Shown here: positions 40,653-48,830 of the stretch, in pieces | Numbering within the stretch: position 1 is the first letter of the stretch | Layout of the letters: the number at the start of each line of letters is the position of its first letter | Assembly (NCBI GenBank): GCA_021299635.1 | Contig: JAJTFA010000001.1 | Coordinates: 471,842 to 535,841 of the forward strand | DNA: 64,000 bases | Direction of reading: 5' to 3' | Source: Sphingobacteriales bacterium | GTDB lineage: Bacteria > Bacteroidota > Bacteroidia > UKL13-3 | Made by a program: the position numbers and the translations under genes | The notes under the pieces: generated by a model | Databases searched by the model: none | The model's input: only the letters and a program-made list of their open reading frames with translations | Told to the model about the DNA's origin: nothing

Positions 40653-41261
40653 TTATTTAATAAGTGATAGACCTTCAAGCGCTGATTTATCTGAAGGGGA
40701 TGCAAGCAGTACTTTATAAAAAAGTAGCCTAGCTTCTTTCAACTTCCCCAATCGGTAATTGGTCCATGCAAACATTAGGAGCGCATCATAGTCGAATGGG
40801 TATAGATTTACTGATTTTTCAAAGCATTTGTAGGCTAAAGTATATTGTTTTCGTGTATAATAAATATATCCTAGTTTATAATTAACAGACGAGTTTTTGG
40901 GATCTATTTTCAATATTGCAACATACAATGCAAGTATATCATCCCATTTACCTAGTGCTGCCAATGGCAATACCTTGCCTAATTTTGGCTCAATTGCATA
41001 TGGCATCAAATCTATTGCCTTCTGGTAATACCCTCCGGACTCTGAGTATACGCCAGACATATACTTTAAGTATCCCAGCCTCAGGTTGCATTCATAACTC
41101 TGCGCATTGTAAACATTATTGATAGCCTGCGCAGCACCGATATAATTGCCTGCTTTCTCAAGCGAGTAGCTGTTTGCAAATGCCTGTTGCATGGGCTGAT
41201 CTTGGGCAGACAATTCGCCTATCCATAGCATGTAAAGTAAAAGAATAGAGATTTTTTTCAT
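40653..41261 (-). CDS. Secreted tetratricopeptide repeat protein
   Basis: Signal peptide (ending GELSAQ) and several TPR-like units (NYKLGYIYYTRKQYTLAYKCFEKSVNLYP). Confidence 0.78.
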   Translation of the reverse strand: MKKISILLLYMLWIGELSAQDQPMQQAFANSYSLEKAGNYIGAAQAINNVYNAQSYECNLRLGYLKYMSGVYSESGGYYQKAIDLMPYAIEPKLGKVLPLAALGKWDDILALYVAILKIDPKNSSVNYKLGYIYYTRKQYTLAYKCFEKSVNLYPFDYDALLMFAWTNYRLGKLKEARLLFYKVLLASPSDKSALEGLSLIK

Positions 41262-41272
41262 GGTTGTTTTAT

Positions 41273-42445
41273 TTATCTGATTAGTTTTATGCCGATGAGT
41301 GCCATATGCAGGTTATAATTTGTTTTACTCACAGATTCCTGACGCGTTTCGTATTGCCATAATCCATATAGCGAAAGATTATCGTATAGCAAATACTCTA
41401 TACCTGCCTGAACCCTGTAATTTGTTTTATCAAATGCATTGGTGGCAAGCCAGCCGTTTTGTTCATTAAAATTATTGGTATTGGCCAGTAAATAGTTGCT
41501 GCTTATGGAAAGTCTCTTTAATGCCCAGTATCTTAACTGGGCGCCATATAACAGATAACTGATGTTGTTATTATAAAGATGTGTTAGCTGAATACCGGTT
41601 TCTAATTTGTTATTGAAGAAGGGATAATAACTAATGCCCACTTGTTGCTGCCATTGCGTGGTTTTATTAAAGTCAGAAAAGGCAATACCTAGCGATGTTC
41701 GCCAATTATGCAATCTTTTAGACACTGCAAGGCTGGCTACTATCGGATTGGCACTAAATTCATTTTCCGAAAGTCCGTTCTGCATATTAGAATGATAATA
41801 GCTGATAAAATGAAACGAGGGCATGATACTCCATTGTTTGCGTAATGGAATATTGCCGGTAACATATACCTGTTGCTGATTTAACCTACCATAATATGCT
41901 TCCTGATTCAGATGTGAAGCGGAAACGAAAACAGTTGCCTTGTTAAAAACCCTGAAGCCTAATCCTACCTGGCTGTAGTATAATGTTTTATATAATGCTT
42001 CATCACTCGATAACTTGATGCCAAATTCTGTATTTGCCAGATGCAGCAGCTTAGGTGCCGGAGCCACATTTTTATTTTTTGAATCTCGAATCTTTACATC
42101 ATATACTTTAATGGCATGCACATAATCTCCGATGTAGACATAGTTCCAGTATAGATAATACCTAATGGCGTCTTTCATAGCTGCATCCGTGCAGTGTTCC
42201 AACGCTTTTTCATAATACGTTGCCGATTTCATATATCGTTGCAGTTGGAAACTTGCATACCCTGCGCGCATATACAGGTAATCAAGTGTGTAACCTTCGC
42301 ATATAGCTTTCTCAGAAACTTCTAGCAATTCTTCCCATTGCTTGGTCATCAGCAACTCGTAACTCACTTCATCATAAGGTGAATATTGCGCACGGGTATT
42401 TTGATTCAGTACCAGCATAAATACAATAATCAGGAGTTTACGCAT
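41273..42445 (-). CDS. TPR-containing putative outer-membrane beta-barrel protein
   Basis: Signal peptide, TPR-like N-terminal third, alternating aromatic beta-strand-like C-terminal two thirds. Confidence 0.65.
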   Translation of the reverse strand: MRKLLIIVFMLVLNQNTRAQYSPYDEVSYELLMTKQWEELLEVSEKAICEGYTLDYLYMRAGYASFQLQRYMKSATYYEKALEHCTDAAMKDAIRYYLYWNYVYIGDYVHAIKVYDVKIRDSKNKNVAPAPKLLHLANTEFGIKLSSDEALYKTLYYSQVGLGFRVFNKATVFVSASHLNQEAYYGRLNQQQVYVTGNIPLRKQWSIMPSFHFISYYHSNMQNGLSENEFSANPIVASLAVSKRLHNWRTSLGIAFSDFNKTTQWQQQVGISYYPFFNNKLETGIQLTHLYNNNISYLLYGAQLRYWALKRLSISSNYLLANTNNFNEQNGWLATNAFDKTNYRVQAGIEYLLYDNLSLYGLWQYETRQESVSKTNYNLHMALIGIKLIR

Positions 42446-44610
42446 TTCACCTCCTTTTGCAGATCAATAACAAACCTTTCAAGCATTCCTTCTTTAAATA
42501 TTAGCTGATAGGTATGTTTAGTAGCTACTCCTGTTAATCCATGCAGGGTTACTTTGCTTTCAATGTTTATTTCTCTGGGGTTATAAAAATCATCAATTCC
42601 GGTAAATGAAGATTCAAATCCCACTTTCATAAATATGCGGAACGGGGCAATTAAATCTTGTAGGTATCTTAGTGGACCTGTAAAAAATTCATCGGCAGGC
42701 AAATGGTCGATTATTTTCATATGATGATAATAACCCAATAAAATCTTTTGAGTAGCCAGATAAAAATGATACAGGATGCTCTTTTTCTCACCGTAAAATG
42801 CTGTTGCATAAAATAGTGTTCCGTTGTTTACAAAAAACAAACTCGACTGACTTTGCTCGCAGTATATATAAGTTTGGTTCCATGCATTTACCTTAAACTC
42901 CCAATGCAGGTTGATGTATTTACCATTCTCCTTGTAGGTTAATTCCATTTTATTACCCGGAATAAAGCGCAAGGCATCCTGCAGTAAAGGTGTGGAAATG
43001 GGTTTAGATACAGATGCGCCTGCCTGTGGAACAGTAAATGAGTGAAATTGATAGTTAGTGCCTTCTCTTGTAATAAAGTAGCTGAGTGGATATTTTAACG
43101 TAGCTGAACCGATATAAGGAGTGCTTTGCAACTGAAAATGTAAATGTGGTTCCGGTGATCTTCCGGAACTTCCACAGGTAGCTATTAACTGGCCACGATG
43201 CACAAAATCGCCTGGCTTCACCACAATAGTTCCTGCTTTCAGATGGCTTAGTTTACTGTATAATGCTTCGGTATGTTTAATGATGATGGTATTGCCCCAG
43301 TTTTGTTGCACATTGATATCTTTTATCGCATTGTCCTCTATGCCATCTACCACTGAGGATATATATCCATCTGCAGGTGCCAGTACGGGCAAGTTGTAGC
43401 AATAGTAATCGGCAAGTGCCGTTCCAGGAAGTTTAAAAGTGTGCTTGGTCTCATCCACCACTACAAAATCCAGTGCATATTTCCAGTCTTCTTTGTGCGT
43501 AATATTTCCTTCATATCCCTGCGAAACATGCCACTCACCGAAAAAGGGTAAATGTAAATGGATAAGCGTATCGTTTTTAAATCGCTCAATGCTGTTCAGG
43601 TAATGGTATAAATTTTTTTCAGGTGAATAAAATTGCTGAGGCACCAAAACCAGGCGTTTAAAATGAACACGGCTGTTCAGCAGCATCATAAACAAAATTA
43701 CCAGTAAATTAAATGGCAATGAAAATAAGGGTAGCTGATAAATATATAAGAATCCGGATAGTCCGCTAATCAATACAGCTATGAGTGGTGAGGCTAGTAT
43801 CACTAAAAAATAAGATGCCCGTGAAGGTACCAGAAAAAAGCCCCCAAGGGTAATGGCGGTAAGAATAAAATTAAATCCGATGTAGGAATACTGCAACTGA
43901 CTGAATTCGCCCGCTACCAGATAATAAAACATATATCCGATGGAGAAACCAAGTATGGAGAGCGAGAAGGCAATTCTTGACCAGATAATGATACCTGCCG
44001 TCATAATTAATCCAACCAACACATTGTATTGAAAAAATATAGCAGATACCGACCGAAGGTAAACATCTGCAAAATGAGGTATGCTTAATTCGTTTATTTT
44101 TTCTGCCAGACTTACCAGCGAGTTGCCGCCTAATTGGAATAACATATTGGCACGGTAAAGGCCTTCTGTGCTTAGATGTATGGAGCCGAATGAGCGTATG
44201 CCAATCATGGTAATCCATAATGTTAATAAAAAGGAAAGGCTCATGGCTGGTACTTTATATTTATACAGCAGGTTATAAAACAATACTGTAAGCAAAACAC
44301 TCAAAAGTGCTGCACTCATGACAATGCAAACGAAGGCTATACTCAAATCGTAATAACTTCCCAATACCATCCCTGCCATAAGCGCATTGAAGCTATAACT
44401 TCCCTGAGTCAAAGCTTGTCGGTCTAATCCGGCCCAATGTGCAAATAGCAATGCAGTTGCCACTGCTATCGCACCGCTTGTTCCTGTGTTGGGATCAATA
44501 AATGACGATGCAAGTAATAGCCATGCAAATATTTTATTATCTGCAAAAAATAGCTGCGAGTAGCTATTGATAAAGCCTTTAAAGAAGCTATGCTTTATAA
44601 ATTTTGTCAT
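42430..44610 (-). CDS. Urea transporter-like membrane domain fused to M23 (LytM) peptidase domain and a novel C-terminal domain
   Basis: N-terminal LLLASSFIDPNTGTSGAIAVATALLFAHWAGL..GSYSFNALMAGMVLG; M23 region H..ALDFVVVD and SSGRSPEPHLHFQL. Confidence 0.85.
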   Translation of the reverse strand: MTKFIKHSFFKGFINSYSQLFFADNKIFAWLLLASSFIDPNTGTSGAIAVATALLFAHWAGLDRQALTQGSYSFNALMAGMVLGSYYDLSIAFVCIVMSAALLSVLLTVLFYNLLYKYKVPAMSLSFLLTLWITMIGIRSFGSIHLSTEGLYRANMLFQLGGNSLVSLAEKINELSIPHFADVYLRSVSAIFFQYNVLVGLIMTAGIIIWSRIAFSLSILGFSIGYMFYYLVAGEFSQLQYSYIGFNFILTAITLGGFFLVPSRASYFLVILASPLIAVLISGLSGFLYIYQLPLFSLPFNLLVILFMMLLNSRVHFKRLVLVPQQFYSPEKNLYHYLNSIERFKNDTLIHLHLPFFGEWHVSQGYEGNITHKEDWKYALDFVVVDETKHTFKLPGTALADYYCYNLPVLAPADGYISSVVDGIEDNAIKDINVQQNWGNTIIIKHTEALYSKLSHLKAGTIVVKPGDFVHRGQLIATCGSSGRSPEPHLHFQLQSTPYIGSATLKYPLSYFITREGTNYQFHSFTVPQAGASVSKPISTPLLQDALRFIPGNKMELTYKENGKYINLHWEFKVNAWNQTYIYCEQSQSSLFFVNNGTLFYATAFYGEKKSILYHFYLATQKILLGYYHHMKIIDHLPADEFFTGPLRYLQDLIAPFRIFMKVGFESSFTGIDDFYNPREINIESKVTLHGLTGVATKHTYQLIFKEGMLERFVIDLQKEVKCVNS

Positions 44611-44684
44611 TCTATCTGAATATGCCTATTGGCGATTCCAAAATTACGTCCAATACGATATTGCATAATTGCATAAAAGTAACT

Positions 44685-46052
44685 TCAGGAAATCTTAAAG
44701 TCTTTTAAAAACTCCGGCATAACCTCATTCATCTCAATATTCTCAAGTGTTTCACGTTTGCGAATCAGGTGGGTTTTACCATCTATGCCCAACAGCACCA
44801 CAGCCGGTCGCATGGCAATAAACTGCATCCATTGCGTCATATTATAAGCCCCAACGGTATGCACTACTACATGGTCGTCTTTTTTAAGTGGTGGCAATGT
44901 AGCATGATCTCGGATCACATCAATATTCATACAGAGCGGACCATACATTACCGTATCTTCCGTGTAGGAACTAAACTCCTGTGCCGGACTAATTTTATGG
45001 TTATACCAAAAAGAAGTAAACATGATATTTACACCAAAATCCAGTATAGTTGCTCTGCGTCCGTCAGCCAGGCGTTTATTGGCTATTACGCTTCCAAGCA
45101 GGTATCCGGCTTCGTCAATCAGTGCTCTTCCGGTTTCCAAAATAAGTAATGGCAAATCTTTATCAGTAAATCCGGCATTAAGAAGAGCTGTGCAAATCGC
45201 TTCGGCAAACTGATCAAAACTTGGCGAAGTATCTTCTCCCGGTAAAAAAGAACCTTTAAGGGTATTCTTGGATGCAAAGCCACCTCCCATATCAATGTAC
45301 TGAATGTGCTTATTGAATTTTTGTTTAATGCCCAATGCAAGGTCTGATAATTTATAGGCAGCAGTAGCATAGGCACTTGGTGAAAGCATAAATGTTCCAA
45401 TATGGCAATGCAATCCAATCAACTCCAGCTTATCGCCTAAAATAATTTTATTAATGGCGTCCCATGCCTGTCCGTTTTCGTAATTAAAGCCAAATCTGTC
45501 CCACATCGGATAAATGCCTGTATCCATATTCACACGGATGGCAACATTGGGGCGTTTATTCATTTCAACAGCAAGTTCGGTTAAGCGGTATAATTCATCC
45601 AGATGATCTATGTGTATGGGTGAATTGTTACTGATTGCCGAGCGCAAATCTTCATCTGTTTTATCAGGTCCGTTAAATATGATGCGATTACCCGGAACCC
45701 CATTTTTTAATGCTTTGGCATATTCAAATCCGGATACCACTTCCGCCCATGAGCCTTCCTGATGAAAAATATTGCAAATGGCATTGATGTAATTTGTTTT
45801 ATAACTCCAAGCAAATTGCACCTTAAGATACCTTGTTTTAAAGGCTCTGTTTGCTTCCTTGTATGTATTGCGTATGGTTCGTTCACTCAATACAAATACG
45901 GGTGATCCGTATTGGGTAATTAAATCTTTAACCGAAAAAGTATCAATATGCGTTACAGGTGCATATTCTGTTTTGGTGCCAAATTTATTCATGAGGCCTG
46001 TATTGATTCGCTGAATCAGTGGGCGCTCATATAGTGCTTTCTTGTTACTCAT
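44685..46052 (-). CDS. Fold-type III PLP-dependent decarboxylase-like enzyme (diaminopimelate/ornithine decarboxylase superfamily)
   Basis: FAWSYKTN (PLP-lysine motif), HCHIGT, IDMGGGFAS, ETGRALIDEAGYLLG, YGPLCMNIDVI. ATG 46052 preferred. Confidence 0.87.
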   Translation of the reverse strand: MSNKKALYERPLIQRINTGLMNKFGTKTEYAPVTHIDTFSVKDLITQYGSPVFVLSERTIRNTYKEANRAFKTRYLKVQFAWSYKTNYINAICNIFHQEGSWAEVVSGFEYAKALKNGVPGNRIIFNGPDKTDEDLRSAISNNSPIHIDHLDELYRLTELAVEMNKRPNVAIRVNMDTGIYPMWDRFGFNYENGQAWDAINKIILGDKLELIGLHCHIGTFMLSPSAYATAAYKLSDLALGIKQKFNKHIQYIDMGGGFASKNTLKGSFLPGEDTSPSFDQFAEAICTALLNAGFTDKDLPLLILETGRALIDEAGYLLGSVIANKRLADGRRATILDFGVNIMFTSFWYNHKISPAQEFSSYTEDTVMYGPLCMNIDVIRDHATLPPLKKDDHVVVHTVGAYNMTQWMQFIAMRPAVVLLGIDGKTHLIRKRETLENIEMNEVMPEFLKDFKIS

Positions 46053-46071
46053 CTTTATTGTATTAGTTGTT

Positions 46072-47118
46072 TTATAGTTCTCCAAAGGTTGAAATGTTTT
46101 CAAACTCTTTCAGGTCCACAATCTGATCCCACGAGTAGCGCACAAACATTTTACCTACTTCATACCTTTTATAAGGATTTACGTCTTCCCCAAGAGCCAT
46201 TCTAACCAGTGCTTCCGGATGATTTTGGCCTGATCCAGTTGCCAGATGCACCCACGCAGGGAACCGTGGATTGATTTCAATCAGGTAGTACTCGTTTCTA
46301 TCGGTTCTGATCATTTCCAGTTCAAAACCGCCCCTCCATTTATTTCCTGCTACCATCTTTTCAGCAATCTTCATCAGTTCTTTATCTTCCAGTGTTACAC
46401 CTGCCCAGGCCTTGCCCTTATCGGTGATATAGGTTTTGCGCATGGGTACCGCTCCGGTAAGTTTGCCTTTGCCGTCACCCAGCCCGGTTAGGTTTACTTC
46501 GGTACCCGGAGTGTATTGTTGAATGATGATGGGCAAGCCCCATTTACCACTTATTTTATTAAAATAAGCCATGGCCTGATCCGGTGAGTAAGCAATTGAA
46601 GCATCATAAAATTTTCCTTTTACCACCAAAGGATAGCCAAATTCATAGGCAAGGTTGTGAATTTCGGCCATGCTATTTATCATTCTACTTTTCGGGACTT
46701 TGATACCGTATTTTTCTCCGAATGCAGGTAAAGCAGATTTATGACGCTCTTCAAATTGTTCAAGTGTGGGCAAAAATGTGGCAATACCCATGCTTTTCAG
46801 GGTATCCTGTAGTTTAATAAAGTTGTATAGTTCAGCATCAAAATTGGGGATGATCACATCTAGTTTTTCCTGCTGATGTATATACTCTAATCGGGTAAGC
46901 AAACTTTGCTGACCTGCTGAGGGTAATGGAATCTGGTAAGTTTTATCAACTACCTCATGCATATAAATACCCGGCTCCATGGCATCATAGGAAAGGCCAA
47001 TGATGCGGCAGTTAAAATGCTTACTTTCCTTTAGTCCGCGTATTACAGGTATACCTGGTCCCGGACTATCAATATTGTTTAGCCCCGTTACAGCTATGGT
47101 TAGTTTGCTCTTAGTCAT
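46072..47118 (-). CDS. ATP-grasp domain protein (carboxylate-amine ligase-like)
   Basis: FGYPLVVKGKFYDASIAYS, IIQQYTPGTEVNLTGLGD, GGFELEMIRTDRNEYYLIEINPRFPAWVHLAT. Confidence 0.88.
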   Translation of the reverse strand: MTKSKLTIAVTGLNNIDSPGPGIPVIRGLKESKHFNCRIIGLSYDAMEPGIYMHEVVDKTYQIPLPSAGQQSLLTRLEYIHQQEKLDVIIPNFDAELYNFIKLQDTLKSMGIATFLPTLEQFEERHKSALPAFGEKYGIKVPKSRMINSMAEIHNLAYEFGYPLVVKGKFYDASIAYSPDQAMAYFNKISGKWGLPIIIQQYTPGTEVNLTGLGDGKGKLTGAVPMRKTYITDKGKAWAGVTLEDKELMKIAEKMVAGNKWRGGFELEMIRTDRNEYYLIEINPRFPAWVHLATGSGQNHPEALVRMALGEDVNPYKRYEVGKMFVRYSWDQIVDLKEFENISTFGEL

Positions 47119-47356
47119 GTTCGGTGAGTCTTAGCTGATCCAGCATTTTAAAAAAATCATAAAGGTCTTTTTCTACTGTTTCCTTATCGGTTTGGTAAGA
47201 TTCAAGCAGGTGTTTTCTAATTTCATTTTCAGATTTTCCATCTTTCAGATGTTTCAAGATATCAAGCCCAATGGGGTTTACAGAGAATGAGTCACCGGTT
47301 GCAGGATTAAAAACAAATCCTGTATCGCTAATAGCGAGATTTTTTAAAAGGTTCAT
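47111..47356 (-). CDS. PqqD-like protein
   Basis: GFVFNPATGDSFSVNPIGLDILKHLKDGKSENEIRKHLLESYQTDKETVEKDLYDFFKMLDQLRLTEHD matches the PqqD-like winged-helix pattern. Confidence 0.78.
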   Translation of the reverse strand: MNLLKNLAISDTGFVFNPATGDSFSVNPIGLDILKHLKDGKSENEIRKHLLESYQTDKETVEKDLYDFFKMLDQLRLTEHD

Positions 47357-47395: not shown

Positions 47396-47902
47396 TTAAG
47401 GCAGTGGTGGGGCTTCCGGTTGCCTTTTAATTTCATGTGGCGGGTGAGGAGCATTTACACCAACCATCTTTATAATCTGATTGATGATGGCATCAAAATG
47501 TTGTTTTTGTTCTTCATCACATAAATCTCTTACCTGCCTGAAATGTTCAAATGTTATTTTTTCAGATTGTTCTTCATAGGCAATCACCTTTGCCAGTTGG
47601 GCATAAGCCGTTTCCTCATTGCCTTTTTGCTTAAGACCGGCATACATCTCTTCTTTTTCTGTTCTGATTTGATATCGTAATTTTTGTATGGTATCAAAGT
47701 GTGATTTACGAAGCAATTCAAATGCAGCAACTTGTTCGTCTGTAAATTCTAATTTAGTAATAATGTATTCTTTAGGACTTTGCGCCACATAACCATGAGG
47801 AGGTGCAGGACGAATTATCCAAACACTTGCAATTGTTGCGAGGTTAATGCAGATGAGCAATACCACCAGTATACTCAATATTTTTATTTTATCTATTTTC
47901 AT
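47396..47902 (-). CDS. Membrane-anchored Spy/CpxP/CnrX-like periplasmic sensor protein
   Basis: Single N-terminal TM followed by LEFTDEQVAAFELLRKSHFDTIQKLRYQIRTEKEEMY and LCDEEQKQHFDAIINQI helical pattern. Confidence 0.75.
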   Translation of the reverse strand: MKIDKIKILSILVVLLICINLATIASVWIIRPAPPHGYVAQSPKEYIITKLEFTDEQVAAFELLRKSHFDTIQKLRYQIRTEKEEMYAGLKQKGNEETAYAQLAKVIAYEEQSEKITFEHFRQVRDLCDEEQKQHFDAIINQIIKMVGVNAPHPPHEIKRQPEAPPLP

Positions 47903-47903
47903 T

Positions 47904-48212
47904 TTAGTAGATATAAAGATTATCAGATTCGAAATACTCCTGTGCTACTTGTGAAATGGCTGATTCATCCGTTATCTCCGGTTGCTTTATTTGTTTATGG
48001 CTTTTTAGGGTTATGAAATTCAAGGAAATAATCAACGCAATCATCATTGCAAATTGCAGAATTATCTTACCACTGTAATAAACAGGCTCCGGCACTTGTG
48101 TGCTAAGTTTATGCAAAATCTTACCGAATAGAAAAGGAGAGGCTTCGGCTCTCTTCATTCCGTTTAGGCTTTGCAAAGCTTTCTCAATGTTTTGGTCTGA
48201 AAAATGTTTCAT
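47904..48212 (-). CDS. Probable anti-sigma factor (small single-TM protein)
   Basis: 102 aa, one TM segment, 3 nt downstream of an ECF sigma gene. Confidence 0.6.
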   Translation of the reverse strand: MKHFSDQNIEKALQSLNGMKRAEASPFLFGKILHKLSTQVPEPVYYSGKIILQFAMMIALIISLNFITLKSHKQIKQPEITDESAISQVAQEYFESDNLYIY

Positions 48213-48215
48213 GGA

Positions 48216-48830
48216 TTACAGTATTAGAAGAAAAGCTTGTAAAGAACTTGCGCCCCCTGAAATATTATCTTTGTAATATTCAGATAATGAGTGCCTTAAA
48301 TTTTCATTGGCTCTAAATATAAGTGATTCAACTGCTGCTGTTGTGGTTTGCATTACATCTGCTGTTTCAGAGTAGCTAAGTCCTTCCAGTTTGTTTAGTG
48401 TAAATGCTGCTTGTTGTTTTTCCGGCAGCTGTTTAATGGCAGCAAATAGCACTTTTGCATGCTCTTTATTCTCAAGCAGTACACCGGGATGGTCAAAATG
48501 TGGCTGATCTACTTGCAGGTCTTCTTCTGCCCCCCAGATTGATTTAATGAATGCGAAACGTTTGGATGCTTTTTTCTTTTTCTGAATATCGAGACACTTG
48601 TTCACTGCAATTCGGTATAGCCATGTTTGCAAGCTTGATAAACCTTTGAATGTTGAAGCCGACCTGAAGACCTCTATAAATACTTCCTGTGTGGCATCTT
48701 CTGCTTCCTCTGTTTGTTGCAGCATACCCAGGCAGGTATTGTAAACTTTATCGGCAAATACACGGTAAAGTTCCCTGAAAGCTTGTTCCTCTCCTGAAAT
48801 GATTTTCGCTATCAGTTCTTTTTCATCCAT
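48216..48830 (-). CDS. RNA polymerase sigma factor, ECF subfamily
   Basis: AFRELYRVFADKVYNTCLGMLQQTEEAEDATQEVFIEVF (sigma2) and LPEKQQAAFTLNKLEGLSYSETADVMQTTTAAVESLIFRANENLR (sigma4). Confidence 0.94.
   Translation of the reverse strand: MDEKELIAKIISGEEQAFRELYRVFADKVYNTCLGMLQQTEEAEDATQEVFIEVFRSASTFKGLSSLQTWLYRIAVNKCLDIQKKKKASKRFAFIKSIWGAEEDLQVDQPHFDHPGVLLENKEHAKVLFAAIKQLPEKQQAAFTLNKLEGLSYSETADVMQTTTAAVESLIFRANENLRHSLSEYYKDNISGGASSLQAFLLIL

Follow-up and report, generated by a model that had tools for sequence, protein, structure and literature searches.

What does an RRE bind when its gene stands beside those of an ATP-grasp ligase, a PLP-dependent decarboxylase, and a group of envelope proteins, and what might such proteins make together? 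The known role of RREs is that of adaptors which bind small precursors in RiPP pathways. The locus that raises this question lies in the window (the whole stretch of 64,000 nucleotides analyzed here), which belongs to a genome of 2.31 Mb in 13 contigs with Bacteroidota MAGs as its named relatives, and it comprises six minus-strand ORFs in tight order. The first encodes a discrete PqqD-like RRE of 81 residues (47111-47356; PF05402 at 44.3 bits, cut-off 23.4 bits), so that the 8-kDa protein does match PqqD profiles; its ORF overlaps by 8 nt that of a 348-residue ATP-grasp protein, a predicted carboxylate-amine ligase that is CPSase-like by profile (46072-47118; ATPgrasp_Ter, PF15632, at 40.3 bits, cut-off 29.1 bits). 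The fold-III PLP decarboxylase follows (44685-46052; Orn_Arg_deC_N at 101 bits and Orn_DAP_Arg_deC at 43 bits); its longest ORF opens at TTG 46103, and when it is started at ATG 46052, the protein has 455 residues and lies 19 nt from the ATP-grasp ORF. After a gap of 74 nt comes a 726-residue fusion of a UT-like channel with an M23 peptidase (42430-44610; UT at 178 bits, Peptidase_M23 at 58 bits), which overlaps by 16 nt (42430-42445) the ORF of an exported protein with a TPR-like N-terminal part and a predicted outer-membrane beta barrel (41273-42445). An exported TPR protein of 202 residues (40653-41261; TPR families over cut-off) closes the row after a gap of 11 nt. The ORF coordinates reproduce the strand, order, and overlaps given in the initial annotation, and its family names for the PqqD, ATP-grasp, PLP decarboxylase, UT-M23, and TPR proteins are borne out by profile matches above the cut-offs. 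Its label of a "TPR-barrel" gene stands in part: like the TPR protein, the product has a signal peptide (read by eye), along with one weak TPR and a C-terminal part that is beta-rich by eye, but no family exceeds its cut-off.

The six genes are a real unit, with an order conserved far above chance. In a sample of 64 genomes of the order, all from one family, the UT-M23 fusion was present in 41 (two of these at contig ends), and gene order and strand were constant in nearly all of the 41 loci (∼40), with flanking genes common to no more than eight. A barrel orthologue, fast-evolving at 20-30% identity, occupies the same position in 39 of the 41, and the TPR gene is present in 37. A second set of 102 loci (80 named GTDB records and 22 phylum loci), which partly overlaps the first and in which many contigs end early, contained the ATP-grasp gene in 102, the decarboxylase in 97, the fusion in 91, PqqD in 87, the TPR gene in 77, and the barrel gene in 67. 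The commonest non-core neighbor family was found in 15 of these 102 loci, and six families alone were retained across the 41 and 102 loci. In a phylum-wide sample, the PqqD, ATP-grasp, decarboxylase, and UT-M23 profiles picked out the identical 23 of 248 genomes (20 genera), where the four genes are adjacent in each; five more of the 248 gave weak PqqD matches alone (E 3e-8 to 7e-6). Within the window's class, 75 of 395 genomes sampled carry the decarboxylase. The proposal of one conserved system is thus upheld by the all-or-none co-occurrence of four proteins and by the exclusive retention of six families, and the cluster is conserved far beyond close relatives, in loci across the phylum.

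Individual loci vary in their content. L114 and L149 have PqqD and ATP-grasp alone, and L134 and L219 have PqqD, ATP-grasp, and the decarboxylase without UT-M23 in the stretch read; in the latter two, the cytosolic half may be able to stand alone. In L157 (9443-11695), UT and M23 are two ORFs overlapping by ∼1 nt, possibly through natural fission or a frameshift. The interval between the decarboxylase and UT-M23 genes holds inserted genes, named from their translations, in three loci: multicopper-oxidase-like and thioredoxin-like genes in L082, an eIF-2B-like gene in L117, and a toxin-antitoxin-like pair in L150. On contig C1 of genome G187, the cluster was matched at both ends, which is probably the redundant end of an unclosed circle.

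Upstream of PqqD, also on the minus strand, the ORF list and profiles place a trio of genes for an ECF sigma factor (48216-48830), an anti-sigma-like protein (47904-48212), and a CpxP/LTXXQ-like protein (47396-47902), the last of which is separated from PqqD by 39 nt. The trio precedes PqqD in the window's close relatives; since it accompanies the cluster in only 7 of the 41 loci, with other neighbors there elsewhere, we place it outside the core, and it hints at envelope-stress control in the window's clade only. No RNA elements were found in the window, nor any tRNA association of the cluster, and PADLOC returned no match to known anti-phage defense for any of the six proteins.

To return to the RRE, the PqqD-like protein is not the true PqqD of PQQ biosynthesis (TIGR03859 at 19.2 bits, equivalog cut-off 46), and it is the single PqqD above cut-off in the window's genome. 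A LysW-like C-terminal carrier role was also rejected, its C terminus being variable in both length and sequence. The nearest solved structures to this family are the lasso-peptide RREs TbiB1 (5v1u, E 6.7e-11) and TfuB1, and the predicted leader-binding cleft is formed by F24, N27, I29, I33, Y54, D64, and F68. Discrete lasso RREs bind the motif [Y/W]xxPx[L/V/I/F/A]; in LppB, Asn33 fixes a kink at the Pro and is needed for binding, and Asp70 bonds the leader Tyr, while in PbaB1 the conserved Phe83 (equivalent to LppB Phe74) separates two pockets (PMC13381572). Our test of the cleft used LppB residues N33, Y60, D70, and F74, among which N33 is equivalent to Asn27 and D70 to Asp64 of the PqqD-like protein. 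At the LppB/PbaB1 spacing, N27 was present in 145 of 145 sequences, and Y54, D64, and F68 were present in most. The lasso RREs TbiB1, TfuB1/FusB1, and PbaB1, together with the LppB-LppA system, likewise have a discrete PqqD fold with the same cleft residues.

Which peptide would occupy this cleft? An ordinary RiPP pathway, in which PqqD binds an unseen precursor encoded elsewhere while the ATP-grasp enzyme and the decarboxylase modify it, is suggested by the RiPP-like pairing of PqqD with ATP-grasp and by the normal binding of RREs to precursor peptides (PMC7470986). However, when ORFs were clustered across the 41 and 102 loci, no conserved small ORF of at least 45 residues was found in the cluster or its flanks beyond the six families, and the gaps of 19, 74, and 11 nt and the overlaps between the core genes of the window leave no room for one. 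Unlike lasso systems, the cluster has no lasso protease or cyclase nearby (neither a B2 leader protease nor an asparagine-synthetase-like cyclase is among the families conserved around it in the 41 and 102 loci), and no cleavable core was identified. The peptide that does match is a leader-like motif in the N-terminal tail of the decarboxylase itself (residues 8-25, YERPLIQRINTGLMNKFG; 45978-46031, minus strand), which is conserved in every readable homologue and, within the window's genome, occurs on no other protein. As this tail already accounts for PqqD, we regard an ordinary RiPP pathway with an external precursor as quite improbable, and the view of the initial annotation that PqqD presents a peptide substrate gives way, with no precursor gene found in the cluster, to the decarboxylase tail as the likelier target.

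Nearly all of the decarboxylases share the tail consensus [YF]-E-[RKS]-P-x-[ILV]-x(9)-K-[FY]-G, which matches the YxxP motif bound by lasso RREs. The tail is present in 186 of the 189 decarboxylases read; ORFs that are split or have a wrong start account for the three exceptions. Among 92 unique tails, the [YF]xxPx[ILV] motif and the Lys at tail position 15 are found in all 92, as is the Pro, and Gly17 is found in 91; the background rate at which the six-residue motif turns up within the N-terminal 40 residues of other ORFs is 2.9%. Alignments with solved relatives do not reach the tail (BtrK residue 8 corresponds to residue 58 of the long ORF), and the tail is missing from BtrK and from the LysA of the same genome. 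It is disordered in a predicted model (pLDDT 23-31) whose C-terminal half is poor, and we draw on this model only for the disorder of the first ∼31 residues, which we count as weak support. The target motif is the same as in lasso and LPP leaders, near the N terminus, but it is carried here by a 450-residue metabolic enzyme and not by a small precursor.

The two sides of the putative interface also vary together. In systems with a Tyr tail, PqqD has Asp64 in 135 of 137 cases and Asn in the other two; in those with a Phe tail, Asp64 occurs in 0 of 8, its place being taken by Ser, Tyr, or His. This association has a Fisher p of 1e-11, but the tree has just 2-3 changes with two independent pairs, and we therefore treat the covariation as suggestive and not as phylogenetically independent proof. 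From motif, cleft, and covariation, the decarboxylase's own tail is most likely the PqqD target, and we expect with good confidence that the two would bind. To our knowledge, such a link between an RRE and the tail of a decarboxylase has not been described before.

What, then, would the decarboxylase act on? Its K85 (PLP), C374-M375, and T346 are invariant among the aligned homologues. It is distinct from LysA, as TIGR01048 matches it at 216.5 bits (cut-off 297.9), and the genome's own LysA, encoded elsewhere, scores 387.6. A third PLP-decarboxylase homologue is present in the same genome (G000:C11:120725-121906; 75 bits to lysA). In the decarboxylase of the cluster, the acidic residue after the catalytic Cys is replaced by Met375 and the Arg that reads the DAP carboxylate by Thr346, and both replacements are invariant in the alignment. 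The nearest solved relative is FigC, an N-citrylornithine decarboxylase (7kh2), where Met likewise takes the place of the Asp that reads the side-chain amine in ornithine-, arginine-, and DAP-decarboxylases, and Thr that of the DAP-reading Arg (PMC7857480). With these replacements and a separate LysA, decarboxylation of basic amino acids or DAP, as initially proposed, is unlikely. The substrates of FigC, SbnH, AcsE, MccE, and BtrK are amino acids joined to another group (PMC7857480). Membership in the FslC/FigC family itself was rejected (NF041039 at 232 bits, cut-off 500), and the citrate-contacting His357 of FigC is Ile377 here, so a citryl conjugate is improbable. The siderophore enzymes FigC/FslC and SbnH, the first of which shares the Met that follows the catalytic Cys and the exchange of the DAPDC Arg for Thr, have an NIS synthetase as partner, whereas the enzyme studied here has an ATP-grasp ligase and carries the additional leader-like tail. 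The ATP/Mg residues of this ligase (E281, N283, and R285) are invariant in the alignment. Given the FigC-like pocket, the conjugated substrates of the relatives, and a ligase with intact catalytic residues, the substrate of the decarboxylase would most likely be a conjugate supplied by the neighboring ATP-grasp ligase.

BtrJ is the ATP-grasp enzyme of the butirosin BtrJ/BtrK/BtrI set. There, too, an ATP-grasp enzyme and a fold-III decarboxylase work on a tethered amino acid (BtrK, PMC7857480), but the tether is an acyl-carrier protein, in place of which the present cluster has PqqD and the decarboxylase tail, with envelope genes attached. The parallel with BtrK, which acts on the carrier-tethered residue of glutamyl-BtrI, suggests that the decarboxylase could be its own carrier: PqqD would present the tail, the ATP-grasp enzyme would load Lys23, and the same enzyme would decarboxylate the tethered residue on a swinging arm. 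The strictly kept Lys and nearly strictly kept Gly, which lie downstream of the recognition motif like a core residue, and the predicted disorder of the tail agree with such a scheme; the Lys may nevertheless contact the ligase only, and an additional step would be required to release the product. We know of no precedent for a self-carrier decarboxylase, and an enzyme that holds both its own RiPP-type leader and an acceptor lysine, tied to a channel-peptidase export arm, seems to us rather unlikely.

The remaining proteins point to the envelope. In the fusion, the UT domain spans residues 13-310, M23 residues ∼372-495, and a conserved C-terminal beta-rich domain residues ∼510-726; in its model (m4fd065a827dc, pLDDT 86), the UT part resembles dvUT (3k3g/3me1) and the M23 part resembles DipM/StM23, and none of the 50 fold matches listed maps clearly to the C-terminal domain alone. 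The UT fold superimposes on dvUT with a TM-score of 0.84-0.89 by target length and retains the LPxxSLPF two-fold repeat motifs. However, Ala, Ser, or Tyr stands at the position of dvUT Glu187 in 16 of 16 aligned members, although that of Gln24 is mostly kept, and in contrast to dvUT an M23 and a further domain are fused. The name of urea transporter thus holds for family and fold, while literal urea transport is doubtful, as the Glu187 position is lost and no urease over cut-off was found in the window's genome. A nitrogen-scavenging role, with UT importing urea and the other enzymes serving its use, could draw on this clear fold and family match; it would leave the linkage to PqqD, ATP-grasp, and the decarboxylase unexplained, and we consider it highly improbable.

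The M23 zinc and catalytic residues H372, D381, H456, H489, and H491 are invariant. They would suit a decoration of the cell wall, in which free cadaverine or putrescine, made by a member of the Orn/DAP/Arg decarboxylase family, is attached to peptidoglycan by the ligase and M23 while PqqD acts as a regulator. This is distinctly improbable: in every aligned homologue, Met stands where a free side-chain amine would be bound, the RRE cleft is conserved for peptide binding, and the FigC/BtrK clade, to which the present enzyme may belong by its likeness, is reported not to be one for polyamine synthesis (PMC7857480).

We therefore return to the docking of PqqD on the decarboxylase tail, around which the cluster may be read as an obligate module. 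The PqqD-like RRE would be a docking adaptor that grips the tail by the YxxP rule of lasso-peptide leaders and brings the decarboxylase and the ATP-grasp ligase together; the ligase would join an amino acid to another group via an amide; and the decarboxylase would then strip the carboxylate from the conjugated amino acid in a FigC/BtrK-like manner, giving an amine-ended amide. The product, or a fragment of it, would cross the UT-like channel into the periplasm, where the fused M23 and beta-rich domains and the exported TPR and barrel proteins may use, process, or hand on the product. Read from the sequences, we lean slightly toward this module as a whole, in which the RRE docks the tail, the ligase conjugates, the decarboxylase trims, and envelope parts use the product. 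As to the nature of the two reactions and which of them comes first, our confidence is about even. Passage through the channel and use in the envelope are put forward tentatively, and with similarly low confidence we infer a small product that reaches the periplasm and acts at the wall or outer membrane; gene neighborhood is the sole basis on which the cytosolic and envelope proteins may be linked. The best reading is still that of the initial annotation, a compound derived from an amino acid and coupled to an envelope arm.

We found no description of the six-gene combination in the literature searched, although it may be listed in the 2009 survey of amidoligase neighborhoods. That survey, by Iyer et al., reportedly catalogues ATP-grasp gene contexts that include those of Bacteroidetes. 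If our reading is true, the recognition code of RREs would have moved onto a metabolic enzyme, an RRE beside an ATP-grasp gene would gain a wider meaning in genome mining, and some of the RREs that lack a precursor would be accounted for.
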